Shown in pieces: positions 1 to 28,990 of a stretch of 53,840 nucleotides of DNA (position 1 is the stretch's first letter; each line of letters begins with the position of its first letter). This DNA is from Thermodesulfovibrio sp. (GTDB lineage: Bacteria > Nitrospirota > Thermodesulfovibrionia > Thermodesulfovibrionales > UBA6898): positions 1 to 53,840 of the forward strand of contig PNOC01000022.1 of the NCBI GenBank assembly GCA_013824615.1, read 5' to 3'. The notes beneath the pieces were generated by a model that did not search any database, was not told where the DNA came from, and saw only the letters and a program-made list of their open reading frames with translations. Made by a program: the position numbers and the translations under genes.

Positions 1-1051
1 TGAAAAGAAAGCGCTGGTTACCCATGGCGCAAAGGTATTCAGAGCGGATATCCTCTGCTCCGTTTTCCATATTAAAAAAAGAAGGGCAGAAACCACAGAG
101 ACTCTTTCTCTCGCAGCGGGTGCAGGCTGACGCTTCTGCCGCTATCTTTTCCTTTATCCCGGATATTACATCGCGCCAACCTTGCAGAAAACTTCCTTCA
201 AGAAGGTTATAGGAAATGCCTGTCGTCATGAGACAGGGCAGAAGCCTGCCGGAGGCATTGATATGGAATCCGGTAAGCCCGGCCCCGCAGCTGTAGAGGC
301 TGCCTGAAAACGGCAGGTTCTGAGTTTTATTGAAATACTCTCTCCAGTGCATTGCCCGCTCCCTGTCAGAGAATTCCTTTTCCACGGCATCTGCAGCAGA
401 CACCCTCAGCCCGAGGGGTGATCTGTCCCCGTCTATAGCAGGGAATATTGCAGCATCAAAGCGAAATTTAACACCAAAGTCCTTTGCAAGTGTTTCCATA
501 TCAAAAAATTCATGACTGTTGCAGGTCATCAAAATTGTTTTCAACCTGACGGGAACCTTGTTTTCGAGAAGTCGCGTGATCGCTGCCAGACATTTTTTGT
601 AAGAGCCTTCAACCCCGGTAATCTTCTCATACGTAGCAGCAGTGGCACCGTAAAGACTTATCTCAACAACATAAGGCGGCAAATCCATCAGCAGTTCAAG
701 GTCTTTGTCACTAATCAAGGTGCCGTTCGTAAAAAGGGTCAGGATCAGCCCTTTCATCTTGGCATGACGGTAAATATCCTGAAAGTCAGGCCTTAGAAGG
801 GGTTCACCTCCGGTCATCAGGAGATAAAGGCACCCGGCGTCAGCGAGTTCGTCAATGACAGAACATATCTGCCCGGCAGTCATTTCAGGCAGGGTGTCAT
901 CCCTGCGACTGGTTCCGAGATAGCAGTGAAGACACTTAAGGTTGCAACGGCGGGTGAGATCGATACTTCCGGATATCGGAACCCGTAGCTCAGCGGATTT
1001 TCGGTTGAACTCGCTCAGATACTCCTTATTGCTCAGCATGCCAATACCCAT
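1..1051 (-). CDS. Radical SAM/SPASM domain protein, C-terminus cut by the window edge
   Basis: The reading frame stays open from the start codon to base 1 without a stop, so the last residues lie outside the window. The N-terminal part has the radical SAM cluster motif CxxxCxxC (CNLKCLHC, Cys36, Cys40, Cys43) followed by a TGGEPLLRPD stretch, the usual SAM-binding GGE region. The C-terminal part has a SPASM-type cysteine set (SCGAG, LLPC, CTRC, LCGFC, YLC), expected to hold one or two auxiliary Fe-S clusters. SPASM enzymes modify peptides or proteins by radical chemistry. The gene follows a PqqD-like chaperone after 66 bases, and both follow the giant secreted protein, so a peptide-modification role is inferred; the substrate is unknown. 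The start is ATG at 1051; an in-frame stop lies four codons upstream, and ATG at 1039 is the alternative. Confidence 0.88.
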   Translation of the reverse strand, partial: MGIGMLSNKEYLSEFNRKSAELRVPISGSIDLTRRCNLKCLHCYLGTSRRDDTLPEMTAGQICSVIDELADAGCLYLLMTGGEPLLRPDFQDIYRHAKMKGLILTLFTNGTLISDKDLELLMDLPPYVVEISLYGATAATYEKITGVEGSYKKCLAAITRLLENKVPVRLKTILMTCNSHEFFDMETLAKDFGVKFRFDAAIFPAIDGDRSPLGLRVSAADAVEKEFSDRERAMHWREYFNKTQNLPFSGSLYSCGAGLTGFHINASGRLLPCLMTTGISYNLLEGSFLQGWRDVISGIKEKIAAEASACTRCERKSLCGFCPSFFNMENGAEDIRSEYLCAMGNQRFLF

Positions 1052-1117
1052 GGTCGATAATCATCGCAAAGCCTCGGGGCTGATACTGTTGTCTCATCTT
1101 CAGGGGTCATCACCATC

Positions 1118-1432
1118 TCATTCACCGATGATCAGTTCGGCTGCCAGCAACTCTCCAATAAATTCCTGGATATCAGACTCTGCACTCTCCCGGGACACAT
1201 CAAAGTCTGAGGCAACCAAGCTGCGAATTTCAAGCAGGTTCTTATTCCCATCCAGTTCCTGCCAGATGTACTGTCCAACCGGATTCAGGGAAAATATATG
1301 CTGCATATCTGCCATGCGCCCCCTTATCGGGACAAGAAAAAATTCCCCTGCGATACTGCGGGAAACAACTTCCGGATTTTTCCGGTAAACCCTTTCACCA
1401 GTTACGGAACCGGCGGTTCCTTTGAGTTCCAT
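1118..1432 (-). CDS. PqqD-like peptide chaperone (RRE-type)
   Basis: This 104-residue protein has the PqqD pattern: an N-terminal RNPEVVSRSIAGEFFLVP strand region, then SLNPVGQYIWQELDG, then a helical half with DFDVSRESAESDIQEFIGELL. PqqD-family proteins are small winged-helix RiPP recognition elements that present a peptide to a radical SAM enzyme. The start ATG shares one base with the TAA stop of the giant secreted protein (TAATG), which suggests translational coupling, and a radical SAM/SPASM gene follows directly. What is presented is unknown: it could be a segment of the giant protein or a separate small peptide outside the window. The family call is firm; the biological role is inference. 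Confidence 0.85.
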   Translation of the reverse strand: MELKGTAGSVTGERVYRKNPEVVSRSIAGEFFLVPIRGRMADMQHIFSLNPVGQYIWQELDGNKNLLEIRSLVASDFDVSRESAESDIQEFIGELLAAELIIGE

Positions 1433-4400
1433 TATCTTATCCTCAAAGCAGGATCGCCCTGCAGATTGTACATATCCAGCATAAACCGGGTGGTGGTCCC
1501 CGTGCCGTAAACTCCGCCATAATCCCTGAAGGCCTTTAGAACAGAATCTCCCAGTACTGCCCTGTCATCTCTGAAAGCGCTGGCGTAAAAGGCCCTGTTG
1601 AGCGTCGCGGACAAGGCATTGTAGGACTGGCCCGAAGGGGCCCAGACAGCCACGGCACCTCCGTTCTGATGCAGCAGCAGCACCTCGCTCAGGGAATCAT
1701 ACCCCGGCACGGCAAACTGTCCTGTCATACAGGTCATGGCGGTCAGGACAAAAACTTTATTCTGCATGGACTTGACATCGCTTACGCGCAGCAGCCCTTC
1801 CTGAGCGAGCCGATCAATTCCGGCATGGCCTATATAGTTGAGCATAAACGTGTTACTGCTTAGCCCGGTCAGCAGTTTCTGACGGATTGAATCAAGCGGC
1901 TGAGACGGGGACAAGTAGAACTTCTCCACAAAGTAATTCGCAGGGATTAGAGCAGCTATGTTATCGCTGTCAGCAGGGAAGTCGCCCCCTTTGTCAGGGT
2001 TATCGGCGGTCATGACAACCAGGTTGCCCGGACTCTTTTCATATGTGATGATCTTTTCAATAAGGGTCTGCAATTCACCAGCGGTCAGCACAGGGAGTCT
2101 GCCGATGGCCATATCAGGTACATGATCCCCGTCAACATCCGCGAACGCGTTGTCTGACGGAAAAAGCCCCAGCGGCGTCTGGACAATCATCGTGGGGATA
2201 AGATTGTCACCGAACCCCTGATTATTCTTGTAGTCATACGTGCCTTCTCCAGCAAGAACAACATACCGGGGAGGTTTAGCCCAGTTGTAATAGGCATAGG
2301 CAAGAAAATCCTGGATGGCACGGGGACTGGATAGACCGTAATTAAACTCATCCATGATATCTTCCAGCTCAACAACCATGGCTTTCAACCCCTGCTTCTG
2401 CCTGTAGTCAGCAAGTGAGCGGGCAGTTGCGGCAAGGGCCCCTGTCGTAATCACGATATAGTCTGCCACATTCTTCTTCGAGGAAAGGGTTGAGGAGTCA
2501 TCGACCCAGGCATTACTAACCGTGGCTGCAGCGTCGGCCGTCGTGGCCATGTAGCGTGCCCCTGGTGAAGGAACAAAGCTGGCACTATAATTCCCGCCTG
2601 CCCCGTCAACAGCTGTTGCCAGGTTAAACATCGGCTTGCTCGGGTCAGTTATATCGAAAACATATATGTCAGGATTCGTAAAGCCGTAGATGGTCAGCGG
2701 CTCGGAACTCTCAGCCCTGAGGAGCAGTACATTCCCGCTGGCCTCGTACAGTTTCCTGTAGGTCAGATCGAACGAGTCAACATAAAAAGAGCTGTACGGC
2801 ACGCCGGGATCTATAACCGCCTCCACCATGACCGTATTGGCACCGCTATGGAGCAGTTTCTGGTCGAATTGAACAGCAACTGCTTTTGCTTCGGTTCCAT
2901 CCATCCACGCCTCAGCAATAACGCTGTTATTGAGACTGATCCTCGCATGGTGGCTTGTACTGGTGAAGCCTTTGAGGTTTACGGTCAGTGAAGCCTCGGC
3001 AGATATATCTGCCACACTGTCGGCCTCTATTGAAAAGGACCTGATTGCAAAGTCTGTATATCCGGGGGTCACGAACAGATACTCCCAGAACCAATAGTCC
3101 AAATCCGGTTCCATATCCGGTGTGGCCAGGATAACCTTGTCATCTTCAGCATGTACTGTTTCCGAGAAACTGCCCTGCCCCACTGGAGCGGGAACGTCGC
3201 CATCCATGCTCCTCATCTGAAGTCCCCTGTCTCTGTTTAACCAATAGATATTATCTCTTGTATATAGGCTTTCTATCCCCTGGCCGTAGAAGAAGATGCC
3301 TTCATAATTTCCAGCCGGCAGATAGGGGACACTGCTCCCCTTATTGCTTAATGCCAGGCTGGTTGTCTTAATAAGCTGTTTTATCCTGTCCAGCGGGATA
3401 CCCAGCAACGGCGAAATCTCGGCCGCATCTAGATAATAGAGCCCTTCTTTATTCACCGATATCTTTGCCTCGCTGCCAATCCTCTTGCCTCTCAGCAGGC
3501 GGGCTCCTGCTTCTGCCTCTTTCATGGAACTGATACGTGCCTTTTTGGCGGCAGATACCGGCCTTGCCTTCCGAACGTAGTCTGATACCTCGTCAGCAGC
3601 AGCGTTCACAGAATTTGCTGAAGACTTGCTCCCCTTATAGGTAACGACAAGGGTCCCCTCACTGTCCAGATACTTTGTTATCTTGCCGGAAGTGCGTACT
3701 GCTGGACTGCCTGTTGTTCTTGTAACATTATTATCGAGAAGCCTTCCCGGGTCTGCCGTGCCTGAAGTGTATTGGGCCTCTGCAGCATTACCTCCGCCGG
3801 CAGTGACGGTGAAAGGACCATAGGCTGTTCTTGTTCCCTTGCCTTCAATCTCCACAAGAATATAGGTATTGCTTCTCGTCAAGAGTGCGCCGTTGTCAAC
3901 GAGACTGTACGTGCCGCCCTGCTGAGAGGTCATCAGGGCAGGCAGGAGGCTGCTGTTAATCTGCCGGTATCTACCTGTTTTTTCATCAAGCCGGAACAGA
4001 AAAAATCCTGCGGTGTCCGTCTCGGAAGAGGTGGACCAGCGGATAATAAACCTTTCCTTGTCAACATACCCTCTGAAGTCCGACAGAGTAACCAGCGTCG
4101 GGTAGACTATAAGCGTATCGGACGTAGGCCCCGGGTTATTACCCAGGGTTGTCTGGAGAGCGCCTGCAGAAATGGTGTTGACATAGGTGGCAATAACAGT
4201 GCCTGTCACCCCCACCACAATGGTGCAGCCTCCCGGAGGAATCGCTGATCCGCTGGCGTAGGTTATCGTGCCTCGCGGGCCTGCTATATTCGCCGTAGTA
4301 ACCGTGCCGGTGCAGGTGCCGGTGATACCGGCGCCAGGGGTTGCAATCAGAAGGTTTATCGGGAAGGTATCAACCAGATCAGCGGTAAGCGTTGCCGTAC

Positions 4401-7400
4401 TTGCATTAGTATTTGAAAGGGTCAGCGTCAACTTTGATACTATGCCGGTGTCGTCAAAACCAACTGCATCGAAGGCCTTCGAAACAGTCGGCGGAGTAAT
4501 AGCTGTCACAGTCAGAACTGCTGAGGCAGGGTCCGCATTATTGCCACCGGTGGTCTGAAGATCCCCGGCAGGTATTGTATCCGTATAAATGCCCGAGACT
4601 GCCGCTGTCACGTCAACGCTGAGAGTGCATGAGCCGGGTACCTCGAAGGTACCGGCAGGGATGATCGCCCCGGACGAAAGGGTCACATTATCCGCTGCAG
4701 TCGTGCCTGCCGTGCCTCCTGAACAGGTAGTGGAGAGGTTAGGGGTACCGGAAAGCACCACCCCTGCCGGCAAGGTATCAGTGAAGAGCGACGTCAGTGA
4801 GATCGGCACCGCATTGGGGTTCTCAAAGGTTATAATCAATCTGCTCGTTCCGCCGGCATTGATCGTTGCAGGCAGAAAGGTCTCGGTAACCAGAGGGCCG
4901 AGTTTAGGTATGGTCAAAGAAGTAGAGGCAGCGGTTGCATTATTCCCGGCATTCGTCTGCAACGCCGAGACTGCTATTGTATTTGTATATATCCCGGCTG
5001 CGCTGGCCGTTACATTTACGGTGAACTCGCAACCGCCTGCAGGGATGCTCGTGCCGCTCGGTATCCGGACTCCAGCTGTCCCTGTGCCTGTATAGGTATT
5101 AGGCTGAAGAGCCAGGCCAACAACGCCATATCGCTGAGCAGCAGACAGGGTTATATTGGTGCCGGTTTCTGTACCGTCAGCAACAATTGTTTTATACCCG
5201 CCCTCCACACGGAAAGCATTTCCCGCATCCGAGGTGTGATCAAACATTTCTGCGGTAAAGCCCGCTGGTATGGTCGCAGTAGTAGCACCGGTGTTGAAGA
5301 TCGAAAAATACATTGCCCGGCCGTTGTTTTTCACTGTCAACGGAGTAGCCCCAAAATTAAACGCAGCTGCCGCTGTGTCATTGAAGTTGGCAACATACTG
5401 ATTCCCGCCCGGGTCCGGGGATGAGGTGAAGGGTTTTATCTGGTTCACATTACTGAAAACACCTGCCTTCATGAGAGTCCAGGTCGGCGCTACTCCATTG
5501 GTCAGGCTAACGGTAAGTGTCGTAGAAAGCGCCGCGGCTATCTCTTTCTCCTTCAAGTATCCGACATATATCCGGTTTAAAGTACCGGCAGGCGTCATAT
5601 AGAGCTGGGTCAGGTTCTGACCGCCGTACGTGGCGGTATTTACGGTTACCGTATTAGCTGCTGCAGTAGTCTCAAGTTCAACAACAACAAGCAGCAGTCT
5701 GGATGTGCCTGCAGGAACAACAAAAGCACCGGACAATACCTGATTGATTGAACCTGTGGCTGAAGCAACATTGCCAGCCCCAAAGTCGGTAAGCACCCCA
5801 ACAGGAGAAGCAGAGGGGGCATAAATCAGGCTTGTGTCTGTTGTAAGATCCGAATCCCATACCGACAGATCGCAGCTATTGTTCGTGACAAAGCCGTTTG
5901 CCAGCGTCATTGTCCCCGGACTGGTGGGGAAGAGGTCAGTAAAACTCGCCGTGGTGGTTATCGCTGAACTGTTAGGATTGTCAATGCGTATTGTAAGCTG
6001 GTTTGTTGAGCCTGGCGCCATGTATGCGGCGCCAAACGATTTGCCAACAGAAGGCGCGGTCTTGACCTCGATCGCGGCCTCGGCAAAGTTGCCAGTCTGG
6101 CCGGTGGCTGTTATCTGGCCGGTCCGGTTTACATAGGGCCCTGCTGCAGTACCGGTCACGGTCACGTTGAACGAACAGCTTCCTCCGGCAGCAAGTGCCC
6201 CGCCCGTAAGCGTAATAGTATTGGAGCCTGTTATTGAATAGGTACCACCGCAGGCAGCAACCGGCACCCCGGTATTTACAGCGCTGAGACCTGCCGGCAG
6301 GACGTCAGTGAATGCTATCGCTGCAGCCGCAGAACCGGCCGGCTTAGTGATCGTAAATCCGAGAACCGAAGTCGCACCCACATTTATCGTAGCCGGGGTA
6401 AAGGTCTTTGAAAGCTCAATAGGTCCGGTGCCGGTGCCGGTGGAAATTGTTGCAGAATCACCGGGCGAGGTTCCTGCATTGGCTGTAGTAACAGGTCCGG
6501 TTGCATTGATCACCGAGGTGTTCGCAGCCAGCTGAACGTTGACGGTAATGCTGCACGTTGTGTTCGGATACATCATTCCGTTTGAGAGATCCAGGAATTG
6601 GGGCGCCGCACTCGCGGTCAACTTGGCACCCGTTCCGAGGCAGTTAGCGGGACTGAACTGCGGGTTGGGCGTCCCGGTATTCGTAAGATTAGCCGGGTAG
6701 GAGTCTCTGAACGTAATATTCTTTACGATATCAGGATTCGGGTTTGTCAGTGTAATTGTCATTACCACGGGTGTAGCAGCAGCCGGACGGGAGTTCGCAA
6801 AGGACTTGGCAACCAGAAGGGGCTGCATGATCTTCAATACCGCTGTGGCAGCAACACCTGTGCCGCCGTTGGTCGAAGTCGGCGCCGATGTCGTGTTGGT
6901 GTTGTTGGTTGCAGCCGTCACAAGCTGCGTGATCATGCATGAACCGCCCGGCAAGATTGAACCCCCTGAAATCCCGACAGTCGTGCCGGGAAAGGCACCG
7001 CCGGTCAGGGTCGCAGAAGAGCCTTCGGTGCAGAGAACCGTCCCTGCGGCAGCATTCGTCATATTCCCCGTGTATGTGTCCGAAAGCGCAACCCCCGTAA
7101 GGGTTGCGGCATTGGAAGCCGGGTTGCTGATGATGATCTGCATGCCTGACTGTCCGCCATTTGAGATCAGATCAGGGCTGAAGACCTTTCTCACCTGAGG
7201 AGGGAAAAGCACGTTAAGCGTAGAAGATGCTGAAGGCGCAGTCCCTGCGTTTGTGGTTGTAACGGCACCGGTGCTATTGGTGTAGCTCCCGCCTGAGGCT
7301 GCCTCCACATTCACCGTAACGGTACATGAACTGTTTGCAGGTATTGTCGCCCCGGTACCTCCGACCGCCAGGCTTGTTCCGCCGGCTACAGCGGTGAGTG

Positions 7401-10400
7401 TCGGGCCCCCGCCACAGGAGGTTGCCGGAGAGGGTGTTCCTGTATTTACCAGGCCTGTTGGATAGGTATCCGTAAGAGATGCCCCGGTGACTGCAACGCT
7501 GTTAGGGTTGGTCAGAGTTATACGCAGAACTGTTGCCGTAGCTGTTGCAATCGGGTTTGTCACAAAGTCCTTGTCAACCACGATGGGTGCCATCACCCGG
7601 AGGGTATCGCTGGCCCTGTTGCCGGTGCCGGTATCTCCGACCACCTGGCCGGAGGTGTTCTGATAGAGCCCCGGATATCTGGCTGTCACATTCACATCAA
7701 TCGTGCAGGAGCCGCCTGCCGGGATCGTCCCGTTGGTATTAAGGGAAATATAGTTTGTCGCTGCAGCTGCGGTGACTGTCCCGCCGCAGCCATTGGATAG
7801 CCCGTTGGGAGTAGATATTACAAGCTCAGTCGGCAGGGTATCTATGAAGCCTGCTGAGCCTATCGCAGTTGCAGGGTTCGGGTTAGTCAGCACAAATCTT
7901 AAAACAGAGGACCCTCCTGTCAAAAGAGGATTTGTCAGGAAAGACTTTGTCATCGAAGGCGGCATCAACACGTTAGGCTTCGTCACATCACCGACGAGAA
8001 GTGAAGCAGTTGCCGGTGAGATGTTGGTGCCGCTGCTGCTGCTGATTGCCCCGGCAGGGACGGTATCTACATAAATACCCTTCGTCGGAGCCGTAACCGT
8101 TATGGTGACTGTACAGGAGCCACCGGCAGGTATGGTAAGCCCGCTCACCGTGAAGGATCCGGAACCGTCAACTGCTGTATAAACCGGAATTCCTCCACAG
8201 GTGGTTGATGGATCATCCCCAGGGGCAGCGGTATTGACAAGAGTCATGTTGCCGGGCGCACCCTCTGCTGTTGTCGGAAGTGTGTTGGTGAAACCCAGGG
8301 CTGTAATCGTTGAAGAATTTGGATTATACAGGGTCATGGTAAGTGTTGTGCTGGCCCCTGTCAGAATAGATGTTGCCCCAAAGGCCTCTGATATCGATGG
8401 CGGCGCAAGCACGGTCACATCCTCGGCTGTTGAGCTGCTCGGGTTATACGTTATGGATTTTGTACCGGTCGTTGTCGTGCGCTCCGGGTTAAGATAGGTC
8501 GCTGTGGCCGGGTTCTGATAGGTTGTCGGAACCGTTCCGGCCGGGACCGTGACATTAAAGGTAACAGCGACCTCACAGGCTTCAGGGATATCCCAACTCG
8601 ACCAGGCAGGATTGGATATACCTGTCAATGCGTCCGTCGTTGATGTCCTCGAAGTATTGCACGGGGCGGAGTTCGGTGTGTAGGCAATACTGGTCGGCGG
8701 ATTTGAGGCGTTGGTAAAGAGCGCCGGGACACCCGGCAGGGCATCCGAGATCATTACCTGCTGGGCAGTGCTTTTACCTGTATCGTTTGCCACTCTGATG
8801 GTGTAGGCTGCTGTACCGGGCAGGCCTGATATGATCGGCGTTGTCGTTGATTTTGAAACGGTCAGCACCGGCAGACAGGCTGCCCCGGATTTCGGACCCG
8901 AGACAGTCGGGCTTTCGAATATAGTTATGCCGCCGTCGGACGAGGTTGTCCCATAATAATCGGTCAGTGTCGTTGTCTTGCCGTTTATGCCGCCGTCAAT
9001 CGTTGCAAGCACCACAAGTCCGGACTGCGGAGAATAGGCCAGGAACCCGCCGCCACCGCCGCCGCCAGGTCCGTGGCGGTCTGCAAGAGTAGCCCCACCG
9101 TTTCTCCAGGCATTACCACCGTCGCCGCCCCTGACAGATGCAGTCACCACGCCGCCGAGCTGGGAATCAAGCACAATGCTTCCGCCTGCTCCCCCGCCGC
9201 CTGCGCTGTCGTTGCCGACGTTATATGCGTCACCGCCCTCTGCAGTCACAGATCCGTTGCCGGTAAACGCCTTGGTCCTGAGGATAACAATGCCACCCCC
9301 AGGAGCGCCGCTGCTGCAGACCCCGTTGCCAAGATTGCAGGCAAGGCCAGGAGGATTCGTGAACGTGAAATTTTCGCTGGTCGCATTATTTGTGGATCCT
9401 GCACCGCCACCGCCGCCCAGCACCACACGGTTATAGGCTAGGCCTGTAACGTAACTTCCACCTTCACCACCTACATTGATATTCGATTGCCAGGAGTTCC
9501 CGCCTTTGCCGCCCCAGCCATAGTTTGCGCCGCCACCGCCGCCTGAGTTCTCATCATTTGCAGCAGCATTTCCGTCTGTACCGCCTCCGCCCGCATTCCC
9601 GGGTGCACCGCGGCCGTAGGACCCGTTAGGGTATCCCTCAACAGTCGTGTCAACCTGGGCCGGTGCCCCATTATAGGCAGCCGGCTGGTTCACATAGCGG
9701 GGAGTGCCTGCGACGCCCTCTCCTTTGCTGGCGTGAGCCCCCGCTCCAGGAGAAGCAGACGAAAACCGCACGTAATCGGTATTCGCATAGGCTCCATTAC
9801 CACTATGCACCCTGCCCATGCCGCCGCGGAACCCTAAGCCGTTAACATCGATCGTACCATCTATAGTCAGCGTGCCAGCAATATCCATGACAACCACGCC
9901 ACCGGTGCCGCCGTTCCATACAGGCGCGGTTACTGTGGTTGCTGCTGCTATCGTTGATGCCGAATACTGGGGAACACGAATTACCTGAAACGTACTCTGG
10001 CCGTTTGTGCCTGCTACATAAGCACGCGTGCGGAAGCTGTTTACCAAACCATTGCCTGCGCCCGAGCCCTGGATCGGGACTGATCCGGCGGCAACAGGAC
10101 CTGTAGCAATAACATACTCATAGAGACCGGTTTGGTTCAGCGCTGTATATCCTGACCCGGCATTCTGACCGTCGCCATACGTTGCATTATTAGAAGCATT
10201 GATGTCTGCATCTTGCATCTGGATCACAAGAAGCAGGTCACCTGCACTGATGGCAGTACCCGAACCCCGAGCATCGAGTGCTCCAACCGGGATAGAGGTT
10301 GCGCCTGCGGCAGGATTGCCATTTCCAGGGTAATAAGTATTGACTATACCCGCGATGGTGGCAGGACCGTCCTTGCCCCCGTTGGCGCAGCTCTTGGTAT

Positions 10401-11565
10401 AGGTTCCCAGAGTCCAGGTCACTGTATTGTCTGTGCTGGTTGATGCCGTGCTGTTATTCCCGGCAGGGTCCTGGACAGCATTTGCAGCTATGCTGACGAT
10501 CACGGTACCCGAAGCAGACATTCCTGAGACTGCCGCATTCCAGGTGATGTTGTCTGAAGTCGTAAGAGTGACCGCAGTAGCACCCGCTGTGCCGGCAAGA
10601 GTAACGTCAGATCCGGTAAACGTAGCCGGATTAATCGCCTCGCTAAAGACGACCGCAAAGTTGATAGGGGAGGAGCCTGTCGGGTCTGCCTGGCCAACGG
10701 CCTGATTAATCGTCACAGTGGGGGGCGTATTGTCAACAAGCGGATTAAGAGAAGCCACAACAATAGCGCTTCTGCCAGAAGCGCCGGTAAAAACGATATC
10801 AGTACCTGCGGGAAAGTTACCGGCTGTTGCGTTGGTTACCTCTCCGGTAGAGGTTGATTGGTCTGTATTATTAGGGGGGAATGAACTGGCTACTATTGTA
10901 AAGCCGTCGTTCTGAGTAACTGCTGTGGCAACATTTCCGGCCGATGCTAAAAAAGTTGTCATTGAATTTGCGTTATGGTCCACTTGACTGCCAAAAGTGA
11001 CAGTTGCGCTTCCTGCATTGTTATATGCCCAATCAGTTACCGGCGTTGTCTGATCCACACCTGCATAGGTAGCGGCCCAGATATGCACTCCGGTAATAGT
11101 GCTGGCCGACATCGTCATGGTCAGATATAATGCATGCGTGCCGTTAGATACCGATGCATCGGGCAGCCACCCCATGTAGCACTGCTCGCGCTGTCCTGTA
11201 CCGGAAAGGGTTCCAATCTGTGTAAGCGGCGTGCCGCCCGCGCCATCCAGTCTGACAGTGATCGATGATATCGTCGCATTAGCAGCCGTTTCGACGCAGA
11301 CTCCTGCCAGGGTTACCCTGTTTGTACCTGTAATCCCCTTCGTAAAAAGGTTCGTCGTGGTCGTCGTATATCCTATGGTCCCGGGATTGGTATTCTCTAA
11401 TAGGTTCGTCCATGCGTTCAATGAAGTCACTGCCGCATCAGCCTGCCTCGCAGGGTAAAACCCACCACAGATGAAAATACTGAAGGCCATGGTTAAGATC
11501 AGCAGAAGTCTGACTTTTGATATCCAGTTCCCGCCGCTGAGCTTATTCGCTGCTAACCTTGCCAT
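1432..11565 (-). CDS. Giant secreted repeat protein with C-terminal C25 (gingipain-like) peptidase domain
   Basis: 3377 residues. A Sec-type signal segment (about 18-45, ending near ADAA) is followed by a beta-rich domain (about 60-275), an Ig-like segment opening at NTPPTVTINQ, and a glycine-rich stretch (about 580-870, many runs of G). Ten repeats come next (about 895-2485). The first is DUF11-like; the others are of the DUF7933 style, each opening like 'PPxVxKxF' with a 'TLTNPN' strand and a late 'PAGGSCTxxVxV' strand. Then come a fibronectin-like segment and a C25 peptidase domain. The gingipain catalytic pair appears intact: His3247 in NYIGHAG and Cys3279 in LTAMTCMTG. It is probably exported and surface-displayed, acting as adhesin and/or cysteine protease. 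No sorting signal was recognised after the peptidase. GAGGTGAGG precedes the ATG. PqqD-like and radical SAM genes follow in the same operon. Confidence 0.87.
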   Translation of the reverse strand: MARLAANKLSGGNWISKVRLLLILTMAFSIFICGGFYPARQADAAVTSLNAWTNLLENTNPGTIGYTTTTTNLFTKGITGTNRVTLAGVCVETAANATISSITVRLDGAGGTPLTQIGTLSGTGQREQCYMGWLPDASVSNGTHALYLTMTMSASTITGVHIWAATYAGVDQTTPVTDWAYNNAGSATVTFGSQVDHNANSMTTFLASAGNVATAVTQNDGFTIVASSFPPNNTDQSTSTGEVTNATAGNFPAGTDIVFTGASGRSAIVVASLNPLVDNTPPTVTINQAVGQADPTGSSPINFAVVFSEAINPATFTGSDVTLAGTAGATAVTLTTSDNITWNAAVSGMSASGTVIVSIAANAVQDPAGNNSTASTSTDNTVTWTLGTYTKSCANGGKDGPATIAGIVNTYYPGNGNPAAGATSIPVGALDARGSGTAISAGDLLLVIQMQDADINASNNATYGDGQNAGSGYTALNQTGLYEYVIATGPVAAGSVPIQGSGAGNGLVNSFRTRAYVAGTNGQSTFQVIRVPQYSASTIAAATTVTAPVWNGGTGGVVVMDIAGTLTIDGTIDVNGLGFRGGMGRVHSGNGAYANTDYVRFSSASPGAGAHASKGEGVAGTPRYVNQPAAYNGAPAQVDTTVEGYPNGSYGRGAPGNAGGGGTDGNAAANDENSGGGGGANYGWGGKGGNSWQSNINVGGEGGSYVTGLAYNRVVLGGGGGAGSTNNATSENFTFTNPPGLACNLGNGVCSSGAPGGGIVILRTKAFTGNGSVTAEGGDAYNVGNDSAGGGGAGGSIVLDSQLGGVVTASVRGGDGGNAWRNGGATLADRHGPGGGGGGGFLAYSPQSGLVVLATIDGGINGKTTTLTDYYGTTSSDGGITIFESPTVSGPKSGAACLPVLTVSKSTTTPIISGLPGTAAYTIRVANDTGKSTAQQVMISDALPGVPALFTNASNPPTSIAYTPNSAPCNTSRTSTTDALTGISNPAWSSWDIPEACEVAVTFNVTVPAGTVPTTYQNPATATYLNPERTTTTGTKSITYNPSSSTAEDVTVLAPPSISEAFGATSILTGASTTLTMTLYNPNSSTITALGFTNTLPTTAEGAPGNMTLVNTAAPGDDPSTTCGGIPVYTAVDGSGSFTVSGLTIPAGGSCTVTITVTAPTKGIYVDTVPAGAISSSSGTNISPATASLLVGDVTKPNVLMPPSMTKSFLTNPLLTGGSSVLRFVLTNPNPATAIGSAGFIDTLPTELVISTPNGLSNGCGGTVTAAAATNYISLNTNGTIPAGGSCTIDVNVTARYPGLYQNTSGQVVGDTGTGNRASDTLRVMAPIVVDKDFVTNPIATATATVLRITLTNPNSVAVTGASLTDTYPTGLVNTGTPSPATSCGGGPTLTAVAGGTSLAVGGTGATIPANSSCTVTVNVEAASGGSYTNSTGAVTTTNAGTAPSASSTLNVLFPPQVRKVFSPDLISNGGQSGMQIIISNPASNAATLTGVALSDTYTGNMTNAAAGTVLCTEGSSATLTGGAFPGTTVGISGGSILPGGSCMITQLVTAATNNTNTTSAPTSTNGGTGVAATAVLKIMQPLLVAKSFANSRPAAATPVVMTITLTNPNPDIVKNITFRDSYPANLTNTGTPNPQFSPANCLGTGAKLTASAAPQFLDLSNGMMYPNTTCSITVNVQLAANTSVINATGPVTTANAGTSPGDSATISTGTGTGPIELSKTFTPATINVGATSVLGFTITKPAGSAAAAIAFTDVLPAGLSAVNTGVPVAACGGTYSITGSNTITLTGGALAAGGSCSFNVTVTGTAAGPYVNRTGQITATGQTGNFAEAAIEVKTAPSVGKSFGAAYMAPGSTNQLTIRIDNPNSSAITTTASFTDLFPTSPGTMTLANGFVTNNSCDLSVWDSDLTTDTSLIYAPSASPVGVLTDFGAGNVASATGSINQVLSGAFVVPAGTSRLLLVVVELETTAAANTVTVNTATYGGQNLTQLYMTPAGTLNRIYVGYLKEKEIAAALSTTLTVSLTNGVAPTWTLMKAGVFSNVNQIKPFTSSPDPGGNQYVANFNDTAAAAFNFGATPLTVKNNGRAMYFSIFNTGATTATIPAGFTAEMFDHTSDAGNAFRVEGGYKTIVADGTETGTNITLSAAQRYGVVGLALQPNTYTGTGTAGVRIPSGTSIPAGGCEFTVNVTASAAGIYTNTIAVSALQTNAGNNATAASTSLTIPKLGPLVTETFLPATINAGGTSRLIITFENPNAVPISLTSLFTDTLPAGVVLSGTPNLSTTCSGGTAGTTAADNVTLSSGAIIPAGTFEVPGSCTLSVDVTAAVSGIYTDTIPAGDLQTTGGNNADPASAVLTVTAITPPTVSKAFDAVGFDDTGIVSKLTLTLSNTNASTATLTADLVDTFPINLLIATPGAGITGTCTGTVTTANIAGPRGTITYASGSAIPPGGCTIVVGVTGTVIATYVNTISAGALQTTLGNNPGPTSDTLIVYPTLVTLSDFRGYVDKERFIIRWSTSSETDTAGFFLFRLDEKTGRYRQINSSLLPALMTSQQGGTYSLVDNGALLTRSNTYILVEIEGKGTRTAYGPFTVTAGGGNAAEAQYTSGTADPGRLLDNNVTRTTGSPAVRTSGKITKYLDSEGTLVVTYKGSKSSANSVNAAADEVSDYVRKARPVSAAKKARISSMKEAEAGARLLRGKRIGSEAKISVNKEGLYYLDAAEISPLLGIPLDRIKQLIKTTSLALSNKGSSVPYLPAGNYEGIFFYGQGIESLYTRDNIYWLNRDRGLQMRSMDGDVPAPVGQGSFSETVHAEDDKVILATPDMEPDLDYWFWEYLFVTPGYTDFAIRSFSIEADSVADISAEASLTVNLKGFTSTSHHARISLNNSVIAEAWMDGTEAKAVAVQFDQKLLHSGANTVMVEAVIDPGVPYSSFYVDSFDLTYRKLYEASGNVLLLRAESSEPLTIYGFTNPDIYVFDITDPSKPMFNLATAVDGAGGNYSASFVPSPGARYMATTADAAATVSNAWVDDSSTLSSKKNVADYIVITTGALAATARSLADYRQKQGLKAMVVELEDIMDEFNYGLSSPRAIQDFLAYAYYNWAKPPRYVVLAGEGTYDYKNNQGFGDNLIPTMIVQTPLGLFPSDNAFADVDGDHVPDMAIGRLPVLTAGELQTLIEKIITYEKSPGNLVVMTADNPDKGGDFPADSDNIAALIPANYFVEKFYLSPSQPLDSIRQKLLTGLSSNTFMLNYIGHAGIDRLAQEGLLRVSDVKSMQNKVFVLTAMTCMTGQFAVPGYDSLSEVLLLHQNGGAVAVWAPSGQSYNALSATLNRAFYASAFRDDRAVLGDSVLKAFRDYGGVYGTGTTTRFMLDMYNLQGDPALRIR

Positions 11566-11591
11566 ATTTTCCTCACCTCACTCAATATAGA

Positions 11592-11648
11592 TTCAGTGCC
11601 TTACACAAGACACTGAACTCATGAGAAGCCCCTTATTTAGGGCTTCTC
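11592..11648 (-). promoter_or_regulatory. Two adjacent hairpins in the leader of the giant gene
   Basis: Between the pseudopilin gene and the giant gene there are two inverted repeats. One pairs TTCAGTG (11592-11598) with CACTGAA (11611-11617). The other pairs GAGAAGCCC with GGGCTTCTC (11623-11648). On the minus strand neither is followed by a T-run, so a simple intrinsic terminator is not supported. They may be a leader structure, an RNA-processing site or a weak attenuator. No known riboswitch consensus was recognised. Confidence 0.45.
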
Positions 11649-11719
11649 TTCCGAAAGCTTCCCGGCTGTCCTCTTCTGCCCCTGTACAGAGCAAAAAGCA
11701 TCCCGTTTTTCAGGCAGTG

Positions 11720-12256
11720 TTATTTTATTCTCATTCCGATATCATCGCCAGATAATGCATTAGCACCCCGACCGGTGTCGACTGTACCGTCTGGTCCTGC
11801 AGAGAGTATCCAGACCGCAGCCCCATCGGTCAAAAATTCCGATGCATTGCTGAGATAGGCATTGCCCCACGGATCGGCATTAACGCTCGCCATGTACGGA
11901 CCTTTCCAGGCACCCGGCCAGCAGCCGTTGTCATCAGTGCTTATATAGTTGCTAAAAGAATTGAAACTGGATTGATCCCAATTCGCAGCAATGGAAAATA
12001 CAGGGATGGCGCCGCTGCCATTCAGTAAGGTCACGGTCGGAACGCAGCCTGCACTAACAGGCCAGGAGCCCGTGTCCTTCTTGAGAACCATTATCGCCGT
12101 TGAAATAGACTTGACATCAGCGTTTGCCCTTGTAATCTTGGCCTCGTCAATCTCCTTGAATATGATAGGCACGAGAATGCCTGCCAGCACAGCAATTATT
12201 CCTGCAACAACAATCACTTCAATGAGCGTGAAACCTTCCTTTGACTTGATCCTCAC
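11720..12256 (-). CDS. Type II secretion/type IV pilin-like pseudopilin (GspG-like)
   Basis: 178 residues starting at GTG, preceded by a strong AAGGAGGA ribosome site. A short basic leader ends in KEG before FTLIEVIVVAGIIAVLAGILVP, the prepilin peptidase site and hydrophobic helix of class III signal peptides; Glu5 of the mature form is present. The C-terminal half has GPYMASVNADPWGNAYL and ILSAGPDGTVDT with GDDIG, the pattern of the GspG calcium-binding region. GspG proteins form the pseudopilus of type II secretion. No other secretion gene is nearby. The gene is co-directional with the giant secreted protein 154 bases downstream, so it may serve that protein's export or be a minor pilin in its own right. 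Confidence 0.87.
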   Translation of the reverse strand: MRIKSKEGFTLIEVIVVAGIIAVLAGILVPIIFKEIDEAKITRANADVKSISTAIMVLKKDTGSWPVSAGCVPTVTLLNGSGAIPVFSIAANWDQSSFNSFSNYISTDDNGCWPGAWKGPYMASVNADPWGNAYLSNASEFLTDGAAVWILSAGPDGTVDTGRGANALSGDDIGMRIK

Positions 12257-12507
12257 CTTGTCCTCCTTAGATTAAAACCGAAATTGCACAGCCATAATGC
12301 TTAATTATTCTTAATGATTATTATAAAACCTATATATAAATAAAGCCAGTTCACATTTAATGTAAATAGCAATTAATGTGCCAAATTCAGATACTTGAAC
12401 CCAGCCTCGGGCATATTGGGGATGAAAACTTCCCGTGGTTTATTACACACTATACCTGAACATAAATCCAGCCCGCACTAAATATAAGGAAAGGCCGCCG
12501 GGGCGCA

Positions 12508-12537
12508 TTGACTCCATTGTCGGTTAGCTTATATAAT
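12508..12537 (+). promoter_or_regulatory. Sigma70-type promoter for the surface-polysaccharide genes
   Basis: TTGACT at 12508-12513 and TATAAT at 12532-12537 are separated by 18 bases, an almost ideal housekeeping promoter. It lies in the 295-base divergent gap (12257-12551) between the pseudopilin gene and the lipoprotein gene. The expected transcription start is about 8 bases before the ATG at 12552, with no clear Shine-Dalgarno, so the first gene may be read from a very short leader. The rest of the gap is AT-rich and otherwise unremarkable. Confidence 0.65.
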
Positions 12538-12551
12538 TTGAAGAATACCAT

Positions 12552-13511
12552 ATGAAAAGAATTGTTTTTATTATAATGGCAATCATACTTTCTGCTTTTT
12601 TGTTTTCCTGTGCTTCCGGCCGCAATAATCATCAGGCACCCGGCAGCGATGCCTCTATGGGCGTCATCCCGAGGGGTTGGTTTGTCATGGGCTCGGATTC
12701 CGGCGAATTAAACGAAAGGCCGGAGCACGAAGTCTCACTGGATACCTTCAGACTTGACCGGTATGAAGTGTCGGCAGGGAAGTTTGCCGAATTCTTAAAC
12801 GCCAACGGCAACCCGGACAATAAATATTTCACGCAGGGCACCTACTCTACAATAATGGTCGTAACGTATACTAATGCCGGCGAGGAAACCAAAGCTGCAT
12901 TAAACCCGCAAAAATATGTTCCGCGGCAGGGGGCTGAAAAATACCCGGCGAATAATGTCTCCTGGGTTGGGGCTGATTCCTATTGCAGATGGCTAGGCAA
13001 ACGCCTGCCCACAGAAGCCGAATGGGAAAAAGCTGCAAGAGGTGTAGATGCAGATTCAGGTATCTATCCATGGGGTGATAGTCTGCCTGATCCTCTGAAG
13101 GCACGCTACGGGCAGAAACTGCAGGAGAGAGGTTTGCAGGTGATGGTCCCTGTTGATTCCCTTCCTTCGGGGGAATCACCTTATGGCATGTTCAATATGG
13201 CAGGAAACGTAAGGGAATGGGTTGCTGACTGGTACAGGCAGAACTACAGTGATTTCTGTGACCCGGGCGGCGATGAATACAACAGTTCGGCTGCAGAACT
13301 CCTGGACATAGACCAGCCGGACCCGAAGAGCGATGCAGCTGCGGATATCCCTCCTAACTACAACTCAAAGGGTCCCGTGATCGGAAGCTTCAAGGTCGTG
13401 CGCGGTGGGGCGTGGAGTGATGCTGAGGAACCGCTATTGAGAAGCACCATCAGATATTGGCTTGATCCTCTGGAACGATATGTTAATGTGGGTTTTCGCT
13501 GTGCCGATTAA
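12552..13511 (+). CDS. FGE/SUMF1-fold lipoprotein (formylglycine-generating enzyme family, probably non-catalytic)
   Basis: 319 residues. A lipoprotein signal peptide ends in LFSC (Cys23 the likely lipid-bearing residue). The rest follows the FGE-sulfatase family: IPRGWFVMGSD near the start, LDRYEVSAGKFAEFL, NNVSWVGADSYCRWLGKRLPTEAEWEKAARG in the middle, YGMFNMAGNVREWVADWY, then VVRGGAW and a C-terminal GFRCAD. True formylglycine-generating enzymes carry a catalytic cysteine pair soon after the RGGSW motif; here RGGAW is followed by SDAEEPLLRST without cysteines, so sulfatase activation is unlikely. A structural, binding or other enzymatic role at the cell envelope is more likely. It is the first gene of the run leading to the polysaccharide export genes. 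Confidence 0.85.
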   Translation: MKRIVFIIMAIILSAFLFSCASGRNNHQAPGSDASMGVIPRGWFVMGSDSGELNERPEHEVSLDTFRLDRYEVSAGKFAEFLNANGNPDNKYFTQGTYSTIMVVTYTNAGEETKAALNPQKYVPRQGAEKYPANNVSWVGADSYCRWLGKRLPTEAEWEKAARGVDADSGIYPWGDSLPDPLKARYGQKLQERGLQVMVPVDSLPSGESPYGMFNMAGNVREWVADWYRQNYSDFCDPGGDEYNSSAAELLDIDQPDPKSDAAADIPPNYNSKGPVIGSFKVVRGGAWSDAEEPLLRSTIRYWLDPLERYVNVGFRCAD

Positions 13512-13560
13512 CTGCCGGAGATAAAAACTGTTTTCTACAGCACGGCAGATGGTGTAAGAT

Positions 13561-14040
13561 ATGCGTATGAATATGCATTTAAACATTAGACTGATTTTGA
13601 GTCTTGCTTTATTAACCTGTATTCTTTTTCCGGCAAGCACGGTCTTTGCGGAAAACAATGCAGGAGATGATGCTACGCTGGCCTTCCGTTCTCAAAAGAT
13701 AAAGGCTGCCTGCGCTGCTATCGCTGAAAATATCAACAAGCCTGCAAATATAAAGAAACTGGTAAAGACAAGTATCCTGATGGGATATTCTGCCTGCCCC
13801 ATAATAAAGTGCTCAATTGAAGGTAAGGGGAACCTGGAACAGATACTTACCGGCGCAATTGAGGCTGGGGTGAGTCCTGACGTTGTCTCAAAATGTGCCC
13901 TTATCGCCGGAGCCAAAAACGGAGATATTGCCACTATTTTGGCTGGTGCAGCCGCACCTGCAATCTGTTTTATAATACCGGGAAAGCAGGAGATACTCAC
14001 GATGCCTGATGTCCCGGTGATAAGCCCTGTAAGATTTTAA
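13561..14040 (+). CDS. Small secreted protein of unknown function
   Basis: 159 residues. A signal peptide (hydrophobic 8-28, ending FPASTVFA) precedes a mature part that is mostly helical, with alanine-rich segments and several cysteines (ACAA, SACPIIKC, SKCALIAG, AICFI) that could form disulfides. I do not recognise the family. Phrases such as ILTGAIEAGVSPDVVSKCALIAGA and IATILAGAAAP look like two short repeated helical units. The gene lies 49 bases after the FGE-fold lipoprotein gene and 38 bases before the beta-barrel gene, so it is probably co-transcribed with them and acts in the periplasm or outer membrane. Confidence 0.7.
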   Translation: MRMNMHLNIRLILSLALLTCILFPASTVFAENNAGDDATLAFRSQKIKAACAAIAENINKPANIKKLVKTSILMGYSACPIIKCSIEGKGNLEQILTGAIEAGVSPDVVSKCALIAGAKNGDIATILAGAAAPAICFIIPGKQEILTMPDVPVISPVRF

Positions 14041-14078
14041 TCACTCTAATCTATATATTAAAAGGAATAACAAACCGC

Positions 14079-15941
14079 GTGCGGGGCTTACCAACACCAC
14101 ATTACCGGCAAAGAGTTTACAGCACTATTTTTGCAATCTTCCTGTTGCTCTGCTGCCCGTATTTCATCCTTACTGCCCATGCAGAAAATATCACGGTTAC
14201 CGTTGAAAAAACCACCTCCCTGATTGCGCTGATAGAAGAGGAGGGCTATTCCCTTGAGGATGACCGGATAGAGGAATTTTTAAGAGCCTTTGTTGTCCTG
14301 AACGAGGATGTTCCACACATCGGGCATATACCTTCAGGAAGCACGGTTATACTGCCAACAGAGCAGCTGACTAAAAGAGAAACAGACAGCAAAGGCCTCG
14401 CGACTGCAGGAGCAATTGTTCTGCCCGTGACTCCTGGTCCGGCTGCAACAGGCAGCCCTGTTGAAATGCCCGGGGGGCCAGCTGCCGGCCGCGGCCCTTC
14501 TGACGCTGCGCCTGCCATAGCACTGTGTGATAATAAAGACGCAAACCTGAAAGAGGTAGCGACTTTCAAGGATAGGGAATCCGCAGAAAAATTCACCGAA
14601 GAGACCGGAAAATTCGGGTACAAGCTGCATCTCTGCAGGCATCTGACCGAAGATAACCGGTCGCTGTATCGGGTTTCACTGGCACAGGACAGTCCGCTGA
14701 AAGATGGCCTGCAACAGGCATCCGAAGTAAACAGCATGAACGAGGGTACTGTCTCCGGGGATATATTCGGGAAGAGTACAAAATTCTATCACCCCTTCAT
14801 CTCCATGACAGCCTTTTTTTCCGACAATATCTTAAATACCGGCAAAGCAAAAAAGAGTGATTTTTTTGCGGTGTTATCTCCCGGCATCTGGCTTGAACTC
14901 CCTTACGGGAAGAAAACATTGAGGCTCCTTGATTCCTCAACCAAAGCCCCTGGCGGTTATATTATAGAAATGCTTGCGGATGACGTTTACCGGCATGTTA
15001 CTGCGTCTCTGTTTTATCAGGCAGATATAGATTTATTCTCAAGGTATTCTTCTGAAAACACGGTTAGACACCGGCTCGAAGGCGCGGCGAAGTATAAATT
15101 CAACAGAAGTCTCTCCCTGGCTGTGAACGACCAGTTTTTATCTTCCCACGATGTCAGGGGGGTAAGCGCATCGGAGGGGCTCGATAAATACCGCTCGAAC
15201 CTGTTCGACCTCGTTGCCGCCTACAACACAGGAAGGAAAACATTAATCAGGGCCGGCTATACCAACTTTTTTGTGGACTACACCTCACCCCGGAATGCCT
15301 TCAGAGACCGGGTTGATAATGCCTTCACCGGGGCTTTTTTCTATAAGACTGGCCCGAAAACCTCTTTGTTCGGAGAGTATCAGTTGATCAATATCAGTTA
15401 CGACAGCAACAGCAAATCTGACAGCAAAGAACATCTGTTCTGGCTCGGCCTTGATTGGAATGCTACGGCCAAGACAAGAGGGATAGTCAAGGCGGGATAC
15501 GGAAACAAGCACTTTGCTTCCGTGACCGGCAGTGGTGGCGGGGAGTTTATCCTTGAGGGTAATGTGGAACATACGCTGACTTCAAGGATGACCCTTACGC
15601 TCAAGGCGTGGAGAAAGACCAACGAGAGTGACAGCGATGCCTTCAGATACCTTATAGCAAATAGCCTGAGCGCAGGACTTACGCGGCAGATTACACCCAA
15701 GCTCTCAGGCTATGTGAATCTTGTGTATTCCAGGAGTTACTACAGAAATCCTCTGCTGGTCGGCGCAGATGTAAACGAGCGAAGCGACAGCTATTACAGC
15801 CTGGGGCTGGGTGCGCAGTACCGATACCAAAAGTGGATGACCGCTGAAGCCGGGTATATGTATTACAACAGAAATTCGAATTTTGCCGCTTATGACTATT
15901 CCAGCAACGTGTTGTATTTTAAGTGCAATCTGTCCCCCTAG
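14079..15941 (+). CDS. Beta-barrel outer-membrane protein with N-terminal periplasmic region (BBP2-like)
   Basis: 620 residues from GTG at 14079, with AAAGG upstream. A signal peptide (hydrophobic residues about 16-35, ending THAE) is followed by a LysM-like segment (IPSGSTVILP) and a proline/glycine-rich linker. A SPOR-like segment comes next (VATFKDRESAEKFTEETG to SLYRVSLA). From about residue 240 the sequence alternates polar and hydrophobic residues with many aromatics (AFFSDNILNTGK, SLFYQADIDLFSRY, RAGYTNFFVDY, SLGLGAQYRYQK) and closes with a strand ending in YFKCNLSP. This fits the putative beta-barrel porin 2 family often found in exopolysaccharide/exosortase loci. It may be the outer-membrane channel or a scaffold for polysaccharide secretion together with the Wza-like protein 64 bases downstream. 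Confidence 0.75.
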   Translation: MRGLPTPHYRQRVYSTIFAIFLLLCCPYFILTAHAENITVTVEKTTSLIALIEEEGYSLEDDRIEEFLRAFVVLNEDVPHIGHIPSGSTVILPTEQLTKRETDSKGLATAGAIVLPVTPGPAATGSPVEMPGGPAAGRGPSDAAPAIALCDNKDANLKEVATFKDRESAEKFTEETGKFGYKLHLCRHLTEDNRSLYRVSLAQDSPLKDGLQQASEVNSMNEGTVSGDIFGKSTKFYHPFISMTAFFSDNILNTGKAKKSDFFAVLSPGIWLELPYGKKTLRLLDSSTKAPGGYIIEMLADDVYRHVTASLFYQADIDLFSRYSSENTVRHRLEGAAKYKFNRSLSLAVNDQFLSSHDVRGVSASEGLDKYRSNLFDLVAAYNTGRKTLIRAGYTNFFVDYTSPRNAFRDRVDNAFTGAFFYKTGPKTSLFGEYQLINISYDSNSKSDSKEHLFWLGLDWNATAKTRGIVKAGYGNKHFASVTGSGGGEFILEGNVEHTLTSRMTLTLKAWRKTNESDSDAFRYLIANSLSAGLTRQITPKLSGYVNLVYSRSYYRNPLLVGADVNERSDSYYSLGLGAQYRYQKWMTAEAGYMYYNRNSNFAAYDYSSNVLYFKCNLSP

Positions 15942-18725: not shown

Positions 18726-18793
18726 GAGAAAATCATTTTATTTATAAAATTTTTCTCTTCCTCCTGATTTTCTCTCCTCTCGCCTTCGGCACC

Positions 18794-23945: not shown

Positions 23946-24755
23946 CTAAAGTGAACATATCAAACACCCTTCGCGTTCTTCCTCTTCATCTTCAAGTCCG
24001 CCTAAAATATGCACAAGTGTTTTTTTCTCAGGGTTTTTTCTTGCTCGCAAACGATCCTCAGCCCATTTCTGCTTTATCTTTTCCATCCGCTCAGGTTTTT
24101 CGAGTTCTTCCAAAGGCTCGGTAACGTTCCAGTAGAATGGGTTGCCGTTCTTTTTGTTGGCATACTCGTATTCTTTCGCCTTTTCAAAAAGGTCGGGATA
24201 TCGTTCTTTGAGTCTTACCCATTCGATTCTTTTCTGGAAGAAACAAAAGAAACATCCAGAACGACTTCGGCCCCATTCAGTATATTTCGGTAGGCCGAGA
24301 CCGGATTCCTCAAGGATTCTAATAATATCCGCATATTCCAAGCCATCATCCCAGAAGGGATGCACCGCCTTAATGTTCGCTTTGCTGCTGATGTACCCTT
24401 CCCTGTGTTCGTCGGCCCTGAGGCCGACATAGTTGATGACAGGGTCATTGCCGACGTATTTTTCAAACGGTATAATTTTGAGATATTTAGTGCACCACCG
24501 CCGCTGAGGCGAAGGAATCATCCCCCCAAAGACCGCAAGCCATTTATCAAAACTCTGTTCAGCCGTCGTTCTCGTAACTTTTTTCCCAAGAATGGCCTCA
24601 AGACGATTTAAATAATCATACGTCTCCGGCAGCTCCTTGTCTGTGTCATGGAAAATATATTCCATGTCAGGCACACGATCGCGCATGTATATAGCCAAGG
24701 CGGCGCTATCCTTGCCGCCAGATAGACTCAATATGTGACGTACATTGTTATGCAT
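23946..24755 (-). CDS. PAPS-reductase-family PP-loop enzyme (DndC/BrxP-like)
   Basis: 269 residues. The PP-loop nucleotide-binding motif SGGKDS is at 12-17. HDTDKELPETYDYL follows, as in phosphoadenosine phosphosulfate reductases and in DndC, the phosphorothioation enzyme. Cysteines fall at 88 (RWCTKYLK), 168 and 171 (GCFFC), and 264 and 267 (GCLICS, two residues from the end), enough to hold an Fe-S cluster. There is no sulfite-reducing ECGLH-type C-terminus of CysH. The gene begins inside the stop region of the receiver-like gene (overlap ATGCATAA) and ends the five-gene operon. Inference: it activates a nucleotide or sulfur-containing substrate for DNA or small-molecule modification as part of a defence system. 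The exact substrate is unknown. No obvious terminator was seen after it. Confidence 0.85.
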   Translation of the reverse strand: MHNNVRHILSLSGGKDSAALAIYMRDRVPDMEYIFHDTDKELPETYDYLNRLEAILGKKVTRTTAEQSFDKWLAVFGGMIPSPQRRWCTKYLKIIPFEKYVGNDPVINYVGLRADEHREGYISSKANIKAVHPFWDDGLEYADIIRILEESGLGLPKYTEWGRSRSGCFFCFFQKRIEWVRLKERYPDLFEKAKEYEYANKKNGNPFYWNVTEPLEELEKPERMEKIKQKWAEDRLRARKNPEKKTLVHILGGLEDEEEEREGCLICSL

Positions 24756-26598: not shown

Positions 26599-26604
26599 TC
26601 CTGC

Positions 26605-28965: not shown

Positions 28966-28990
28966 TTATATAATCACCGTTCTGAACACA

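Follow-up and report, generated by a model that had tools for sequence, protein, structure and literature searches.

A giant gingipain/PorU-type C25 protein as a probable conserved partner in a six-gene RiPP cluster of Thermodesulfovibrio and relatives

The window analyzed here, the whole stretch of 53,840 nucleotides from a Thermodesulfovibrio sp., is the complete contig C22 of a genome assembled into 96 contigs. At its left end lie genes for a giant C25 protein, a PqqD-type recognition element, and a radical SAM/SPASM enzyme, and it is very likely (roughly 90%) that this locus is the left portion of a six-gene RiPP cluster in which the C25 protein is a conserved partner. The other three genes encode a 58-aa precursor, an HprK-like kinase, and an S26 peptidase. 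The gene set, its order, its conservation, and the intact catalytic residues are direct observations, whereas the role of the C25 protein is a matter of graded readings, which are weighed below. A first-pass annotation had described the giant ORF, the PqqD-like gene, and the radical SAM gene as a linked set at 1-11565, and all three are indeed found there (Table 1), with the giant-gene stop and the PqqD-like start sharing base 1432 within TAATG, as had also been noted. That annotation saw no small precursor. The reason is that C22 ends within the radical SAM gene, whose ORF is cut at base 2 by the left contig end, and the precursor starts the adjoining contig, C92, where it is accompanied by the kinase and the S26 peptidase.

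Table 1. Features of the giant gene and its downstream partners in the window.
Feature	Coordinates	Strand	Evidence
Radical SAM/SPASM enzyme, 350 aa within the window, final residues on C92 (locus L053)	2..1051	-	PF04055 E 1.9e-23
PqqD-type RiPP recognition element, 104 aa	1118..1432	-	PF05402 E 7.8e-15
Giant secreted protein, 3377 aa	1432..11565	-	ORF + Pfam/NCBIfam
PorU-like C-terminal module, residues 2450-3377	1435..4218	-	AlphaFold2 mean pLDDT 80.6
C25 peptidase domain	1438..2460	-	PF01364 (Peptidase_C25) E 2.4e-80 to 3.7e-78
Cys3279 codon, catalytic	1729..1731	-	invariant 27/27
His3247 codon, catalytic	1825..1827	-	invariant 27/27
AgmC-like N-terminal region, residues 397-861	8983..10377	-	NCBIfam NF047640 E 1.8e-28, under the model's cut-off
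Probable Sec signal peptide, residues 1-45, MARLAANK...RQADAA	11431..11565	-	read by eye from sequence

The adjoining contig and the precursor peptide

Precursors were detected with a profile made from small ORFs of the family itself, and this profile has a single match in the host's own genome, at the extreme end of C92 (E 1.9e-20). Beyond the window, C92 carries the end of the radical SAM gene, followed by the precursor, the HprK-like kinase, and the S26 peptidase. C22 and C92 have no shared overlap, and when the two are abutted, the frame of the radical SAM gene runs on to yield a C-terminus of FLF followed across the join by IKNEHAKGAQDAG and the stop, as in relatives; both this join and the position of the precursor start, which falls in the gene overlap on the joined sequence, were read by eye from the contig ends. 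Related genomes contain the same order of C25, PqqD, radical SAM, an ORF of 51-62 aa, HprK-like kinase, and S26-like peptidase. Since C92 brings the precursor, kinase, and S26 genes, the locus reads as a RiPP cluster, and the case for this reading is strong: a short precursor lies beside modifying enzymes, a PqqD domain is present, and the radical SAM enzyme has both its radical SAM and SPASM cysteines. The first-pass annotation had raised the possibility of a standard RiPP cluster just outside the window, and a RiPP cluster there does account for the two enzymes; however, it is a non-standard one, and C25 recurs within it. Of the precursor and transporter that might have been expected past the left edge, the former was found, whereas inspection of the adjoining contig revealed neither an MsbA-like exporter nor an NTP transferase.

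The precursor of the host genome (MQDKRDEKEKNIYEKPRLRTIELAAEEVLGIGCKIAPGHPSGVGGNCSSALCSTNIGS) has the form YEKPxLR...GCK...C...C..GS. Across the alignment, Y, K, P, C, K, C, C, and the terminal S are invariant, the leader consensus of the family is YEKPxLRxIELxAEEV, and [YW]xxP is present in every precursor detected. The last residue is Ser in 51/53 precursors and Thr in the other two, for which reason a rule that all end in Ser, which had fitted the first 47 of 47, was dropped; the 53 omit the candidate peptides of two more distant systems (L221 and L145), which have other last residues. For three relatives of the precursor, no Pfam model matched and NCBIfam returned nothing meaningful. A Gly-Ser end occurs in 24 of the 26 precursors from C25 clusters vs 7/21 others, counts which are not independent of ancestry and which include, among the seven, two precursors at contig ends where a C25 gene could be missing. 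One C25 cassette (L041) has two near-identical precursor copies, at 18782-18958 and 8270-8449, one on either side of its C25 gene.

Distribution of the cassette with and without C25

Among 150 Nitrospirota relatives, 17 of the 20 strong C25 loci hold PqqD and radical SAM genes in one cassette, and thus the survey of related genomes that had been proposed bears out the linkage. Two further loci were probably divided by contig ends (C110 with C93 in genome G001; C207 with C74 in G131), while the last is a divergent C25 gene located elsewhere in its genome (G032). In the same 150 relatives, the per-genome comparison of C25 with a strong precursor match (19/1/3/128) gave a Fisher p=5e-20, a value inflated by relatedness, and the distances of the C25 and radical SAM proteins were correlated with a rho of 0.85, similarly inflated by shared ancestry. 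In the wider phylum, there was one more linked genome (G301) as well as about a dozen with short C25 proteins, mostly without a cassette, and C25 genes outside the host's order were unlinked to such a cassette in 11/12 genomes of the phylum. Seven of the short proteins (L214, L215, and L225-L229), from another family of the phylum, are lipoprotein-like and about 730-770 aa in length (that of L228 is cut), with no modified-peptide cassette found near their C25 genes. Therefore, our claim is limited to one kind of C25 protein. Among the matches listed, C25 occurs inside the cassette in at least four phyla (Nitrospirota, Omnitrophota, Kiritimatiellota, and Verrucomicrobiota bins), so the tie between a C25 gene and radical peptide chemistry, which the first-pass annotation had considered unusual, is kept across both genera and phyla.

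In a tree of radical SAM proteins with 52 rows, two of them contig-split and labelled as C25 by inference, 21 C25 rows fall in one clade (99/100) and four in a second (100/100), in which C25 follows the kinase; a single Omnitrophota C25 row stands apart from both. The C25 label requires 3 changes on this tree vs 17.5 for shuffled labels, and the three may correspond to one gain and two losses. In L039/L040, the C25 gene is within the cassette, between the kinase and S26 genes.

About 20 further loci contain PqqD, radical SAM, precursor, kinase, and S26 genes with no C25 gene nearby. One C25-free subclade has a WxxP leader, and five of its loci include an MsbA-like exporter; L125, a C25-free relative, has both an MsbA-like exporter and an NTP_transf_5 gene. 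By homology search, a full-length MsbA-like exporter was found in 0/24 C25 loci, an NTP transferase homologue was present in just one of them (L039), and no peptide exporter was found in the C25 clusters. A different arrangement is seen in L221, where positions 7668-14450 encode PqqD, a YEPPxV peptide (MEDNEKNEKESIKRKKPKYEPPQVRTYTGDDLLKELGPAQALYGPSVPLP), an HprK-related kinase A-like protein, a C25 propeptide, C25, S26, and an NTP transferase. No radical SAM gene occurs in the stretch of L221 seen, but its contig ends soon after PqqD, and one may lie past that end. Two other loci, L141 and L232, have cassettes with three radical SAM enzymes together with PqqD, kinase, and precursor.

Maturation enzymes and related systems

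The PqqD-type protein scores 55.4 bits against a PF05402 cut-off of 23.4. In the radical SAM enzyme, the CxxxCxxC cysteines (C36, C40, and C43) and the SPASM cysteines (C255, C273, C310, C313, C319, C322, and C341) are all invariant in the alignment. Its nearest solved structure is SkfB, a sactipeptide maturase (6.3e-28), and because of this relationship and the Cys pattern of the precursor, our guess is that the bond formed would most likely be a thioether on the Cys core. The kinase, encoded on C92 (the same contig as the precursor), was recognized as HprK-like with an E of 2.1e-80; its invariant residues H151, G166, G169, G171, K172, D189, and D190 have catalytic spacing identical to that of BsfK (H148-G163-G166-G168-K169-S170-D186-D187; PMC10368454), and its model (pLDDT 89.8) matches the PEP carboxykinase (PEPCK) and HPr kinase folds. 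Kinases related to it phosphorylate lasso precursors at their C-terminal Ser (PMC8498205). By analogy, the kinase probably acts on the C-terminal residue of the precursor, and the predominance of terminal Ser (otherwise Thr) is as expected if it does so, as in paeninodin. In the S26 peptidase, Ser49, His87, and Asp107 are invariant, and the host protein scores 65.4 bits against the TIGR02228 cut-off of 51.85. The same Ser-His-Asp set is found in LppS, a leader peptidase that requires its RRE (PMC13381572). The S26 enzyme appears a likelier leader peptidase than C25. The S26 proteins of L133 (3892-5973) and L142 (4237-5898) are long, at 693 and 553 aa, and are probably fusions with an NTP_transf_5-type protein, because they also match that of L125.

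Among known systems, the LPP family of linear polyphosphorylated peptides (Popov et al. 2026; PMC13381572) comes nearest. The two have in common a discrete recognition element, an HprK-like kinase (here by residue spacing and fold), an archaeal-type S26 leader peptidase (here an SpI-type protein with Ser-His-Asp), a YxxP motif, and a capsule-locus setting. However, LPP clusters as described contain neither a radical SAM enzyme nor a C25 protein, both of which are in the present cassette, and they do have the MsbA-like exporter and NTP transferase that were not seen in it. The LPP kinase targets Ser3 of the core, the family is described from Bacillota, and of its leader consensus, YxxPxVLxHQxIxFETxxS, only YxxP is common to both. 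Paeninodin-like lasso peptide systems (PadeK, ThcoK, and BsfK) are similar in having the same kind of kinase with the BsfK residue spacing, a C-terminal Ser, and a discrete recognition element for a YxxP or WxxP leader, but the present cassette adds a radical SAM enzyme and has S26 in place of the B2 protease. HprK-like, PqqD-like, and radical SAM/SPASM proteins also occur together in the SynChlorMet cassette (NCBIfam ScmC-ScmF), for which we found no paper; among NCBIfam models, the PqqD protein matches ScmD best or joint best, and the kinase does so with ScmC, whereas SynChlorMet has two radical SAM enzymes rather than one, and S26 and C25 are found only here. Membership in SynChlorMet was rejected, since all scores fall far under the cut-offs (ScmC 37.5/125, ScmD 34.9/100, and ScmE and ScmF 89.6 and 72/400 bits), as was membership in GeoRSP (TIGR04302 20.2/100 and TIGR04303 80.8/400 bits).

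The C25 protein and its possible roles

The giant protein qualifies as a family C25 peptidase by its PF01364 domain and its catalytic His and Cys, and the pair proposed previously, His3247/Cys3279, is unchanged across the 27 C25 homologues that could be aligned. The protein also contains ten DUF7933 repeats by Pfam, though the stalk repeats of relatives vary among DUF7933, DUF11, and SdrD_B. The AlphaFold2 model of its C-terminal 928 residues matches RgpB (4ief) with a Z of 36.4 over 314 aa and PorU (6za2) with a Z of 22.2 over 549 aa, the latter including the upstream beta domains. Thus, the beta domains and C25 share their order, fold, and catalytic His and Cys with PorU, the type IX sortase; they differ in that the C25 module here ends a long repeat stalk and is without the PorU C-terminal part. 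The PorU model NF033707 is the best NCBIfam match to the C-terminus, at 216.5 bits vs its cut-off of 420. A search for SprA gave no match in the host genome, and the control genomes gave no match either. Our literature search found no relevant AgmC paper.

Just upstream of the giant gene, there is a GspG-like pseudopilin gene (11720-12256), and in L033 and L037 the C25 gene likewise has a homologue of it upstream. The region 12552-15941 encodes an FGE-sulfatase-domain protein, a Cys-containing protein of 159 aa that belongs to no known family, and a beta-barrel porin; relatives of the 159-aa protein turn up again near such cassettes, whether or not C25 is present. Farther along, at 23946-33368, are phosphorothioate-type Ssp defence genes (SspB 32445-33368, SspC 28991-32452, and SspD 23946-24755), among which there are two more genes, encoding a protein of 616 aa and a HATPase protein of 786 aa, that no PADLOC model matched.

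Taken as a whole, the explanation that we moderately favor from the sequence has five steps, the first four by homology. PqqD would bind the YEKPxL motif of the precursor leader, the radical SAM enzyme would modify the Cys-containing core, most likely with thioether bonds, the kinase would phosphorylate the C-terminal Ser (or Thr), and the S26 enzyme would remove the leader, with PqqD presenting it with its substrate. In the fifth step, suggested by linkage and fold, Sec would export the giant protein to the cell surface, where C25 would act on the exported peptide, either to trim it or to attach it in the way that PorU, a relative, does with its cargo. That C25 acts on the peptide is itself somewhat short of an even bet. 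The first-pass annotation had offered, as its second option, that the peptidase domain processes a peptide encoded elsewhere; the peptide in fact belongs to the C25 protein's own gene cluster. PorU acts as a sortase, which motivates a possible attachment role for the giant C25 protein. In its fullest form, a PorU-like transpeptidase would covalently link the peptide, phosphorylated and modified by the radical SAM enzyme, to the cell surface, where the acceptor could be polysaccharide, other proteins, or the stalk of the transpeptidase itself, and we regard this form as rather unlikely. If true, it would mean that Gram-negative-type bacteria which have no type IX secretion keep a RiPP on display instead of releasing it.

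The direction of action could also be reversed, with the modified peptide serving the protease as a secreted inhibitor, activator, or cofactor of C25. The fixed linkage at several places on the tree and the co-inheritance of the genes would fit this arrangement, and the separate C25 propeptide gene of L221 indicates that control of C25 is encoded locally in that locus; however, such peptides are also produced at loci that have no C25 gene close by, and we consider the reversed arrangement a lesser possibility. We give a comparably small chance to the absence of any direct dealings between C25 and the peptide, which would then be separate surface functions gathered in exopolysaccharide loci. 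Among the matches listed, Wza/Wzc homologues are near 12/53 family loci and the host's own cassette vs 0/66 other radical SAM loci, and capsule loci also house LPP and paeninodin clusters (PMC13381572). On the other hand, exopolysaccharide genes are absent from the stretch seen in most C25-bearing loci, and C25 overlaps PqqD by one base here and lies inside the cassette, between kinase and S26, in L039/L040.

A role for C25 as the leader peptidase, or as a second leader-trimming protease outside the cell, is improbable. Gingipain-fold C25 enzymes (RgpB and Kgp) cleave after Lys/Arg, and a conserved Lys stands beside the first core Cys in most precursors, yet most of the C25-free ones keep this Lys as well, and the Ser-His-Asp S26 enzyme is present both with and without C25. 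The core cassette is inferred to work without C25 in many relatives, and therefore C25 should be unneeded for either modification or leader removal. Finally, the earlier suggestion that the giant protein is itself modified by the radical SAM enzyme has only the gene overlap and operon order in its favor and is very improbable, since the PqqD, radical SAM, kinase, and S26 core occurs with its own small precursor in many genomes without the giant protein and the stalk repeats differ among relatives.

We found no relevant paper on C25 or gingipain proteins with PqqD, radical SAM, or RiPP, and in the literature searched, the union of radical SAM chemistry, likely C-terminal phosphorylation and S26 leader removal, and a giant gingipain/PorU-type protease is unreported. 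Recurring as it does in several phyla, and in one cassette that showed no radical SAM gene in the stretch seen, the link points to a general involvement of C25 proteins with small modified peptides outside Bacteroidota. Thus, the occurrence of this gene set across several phyla suggests an undescribed route by which bacteria may make and display a modified peptide.
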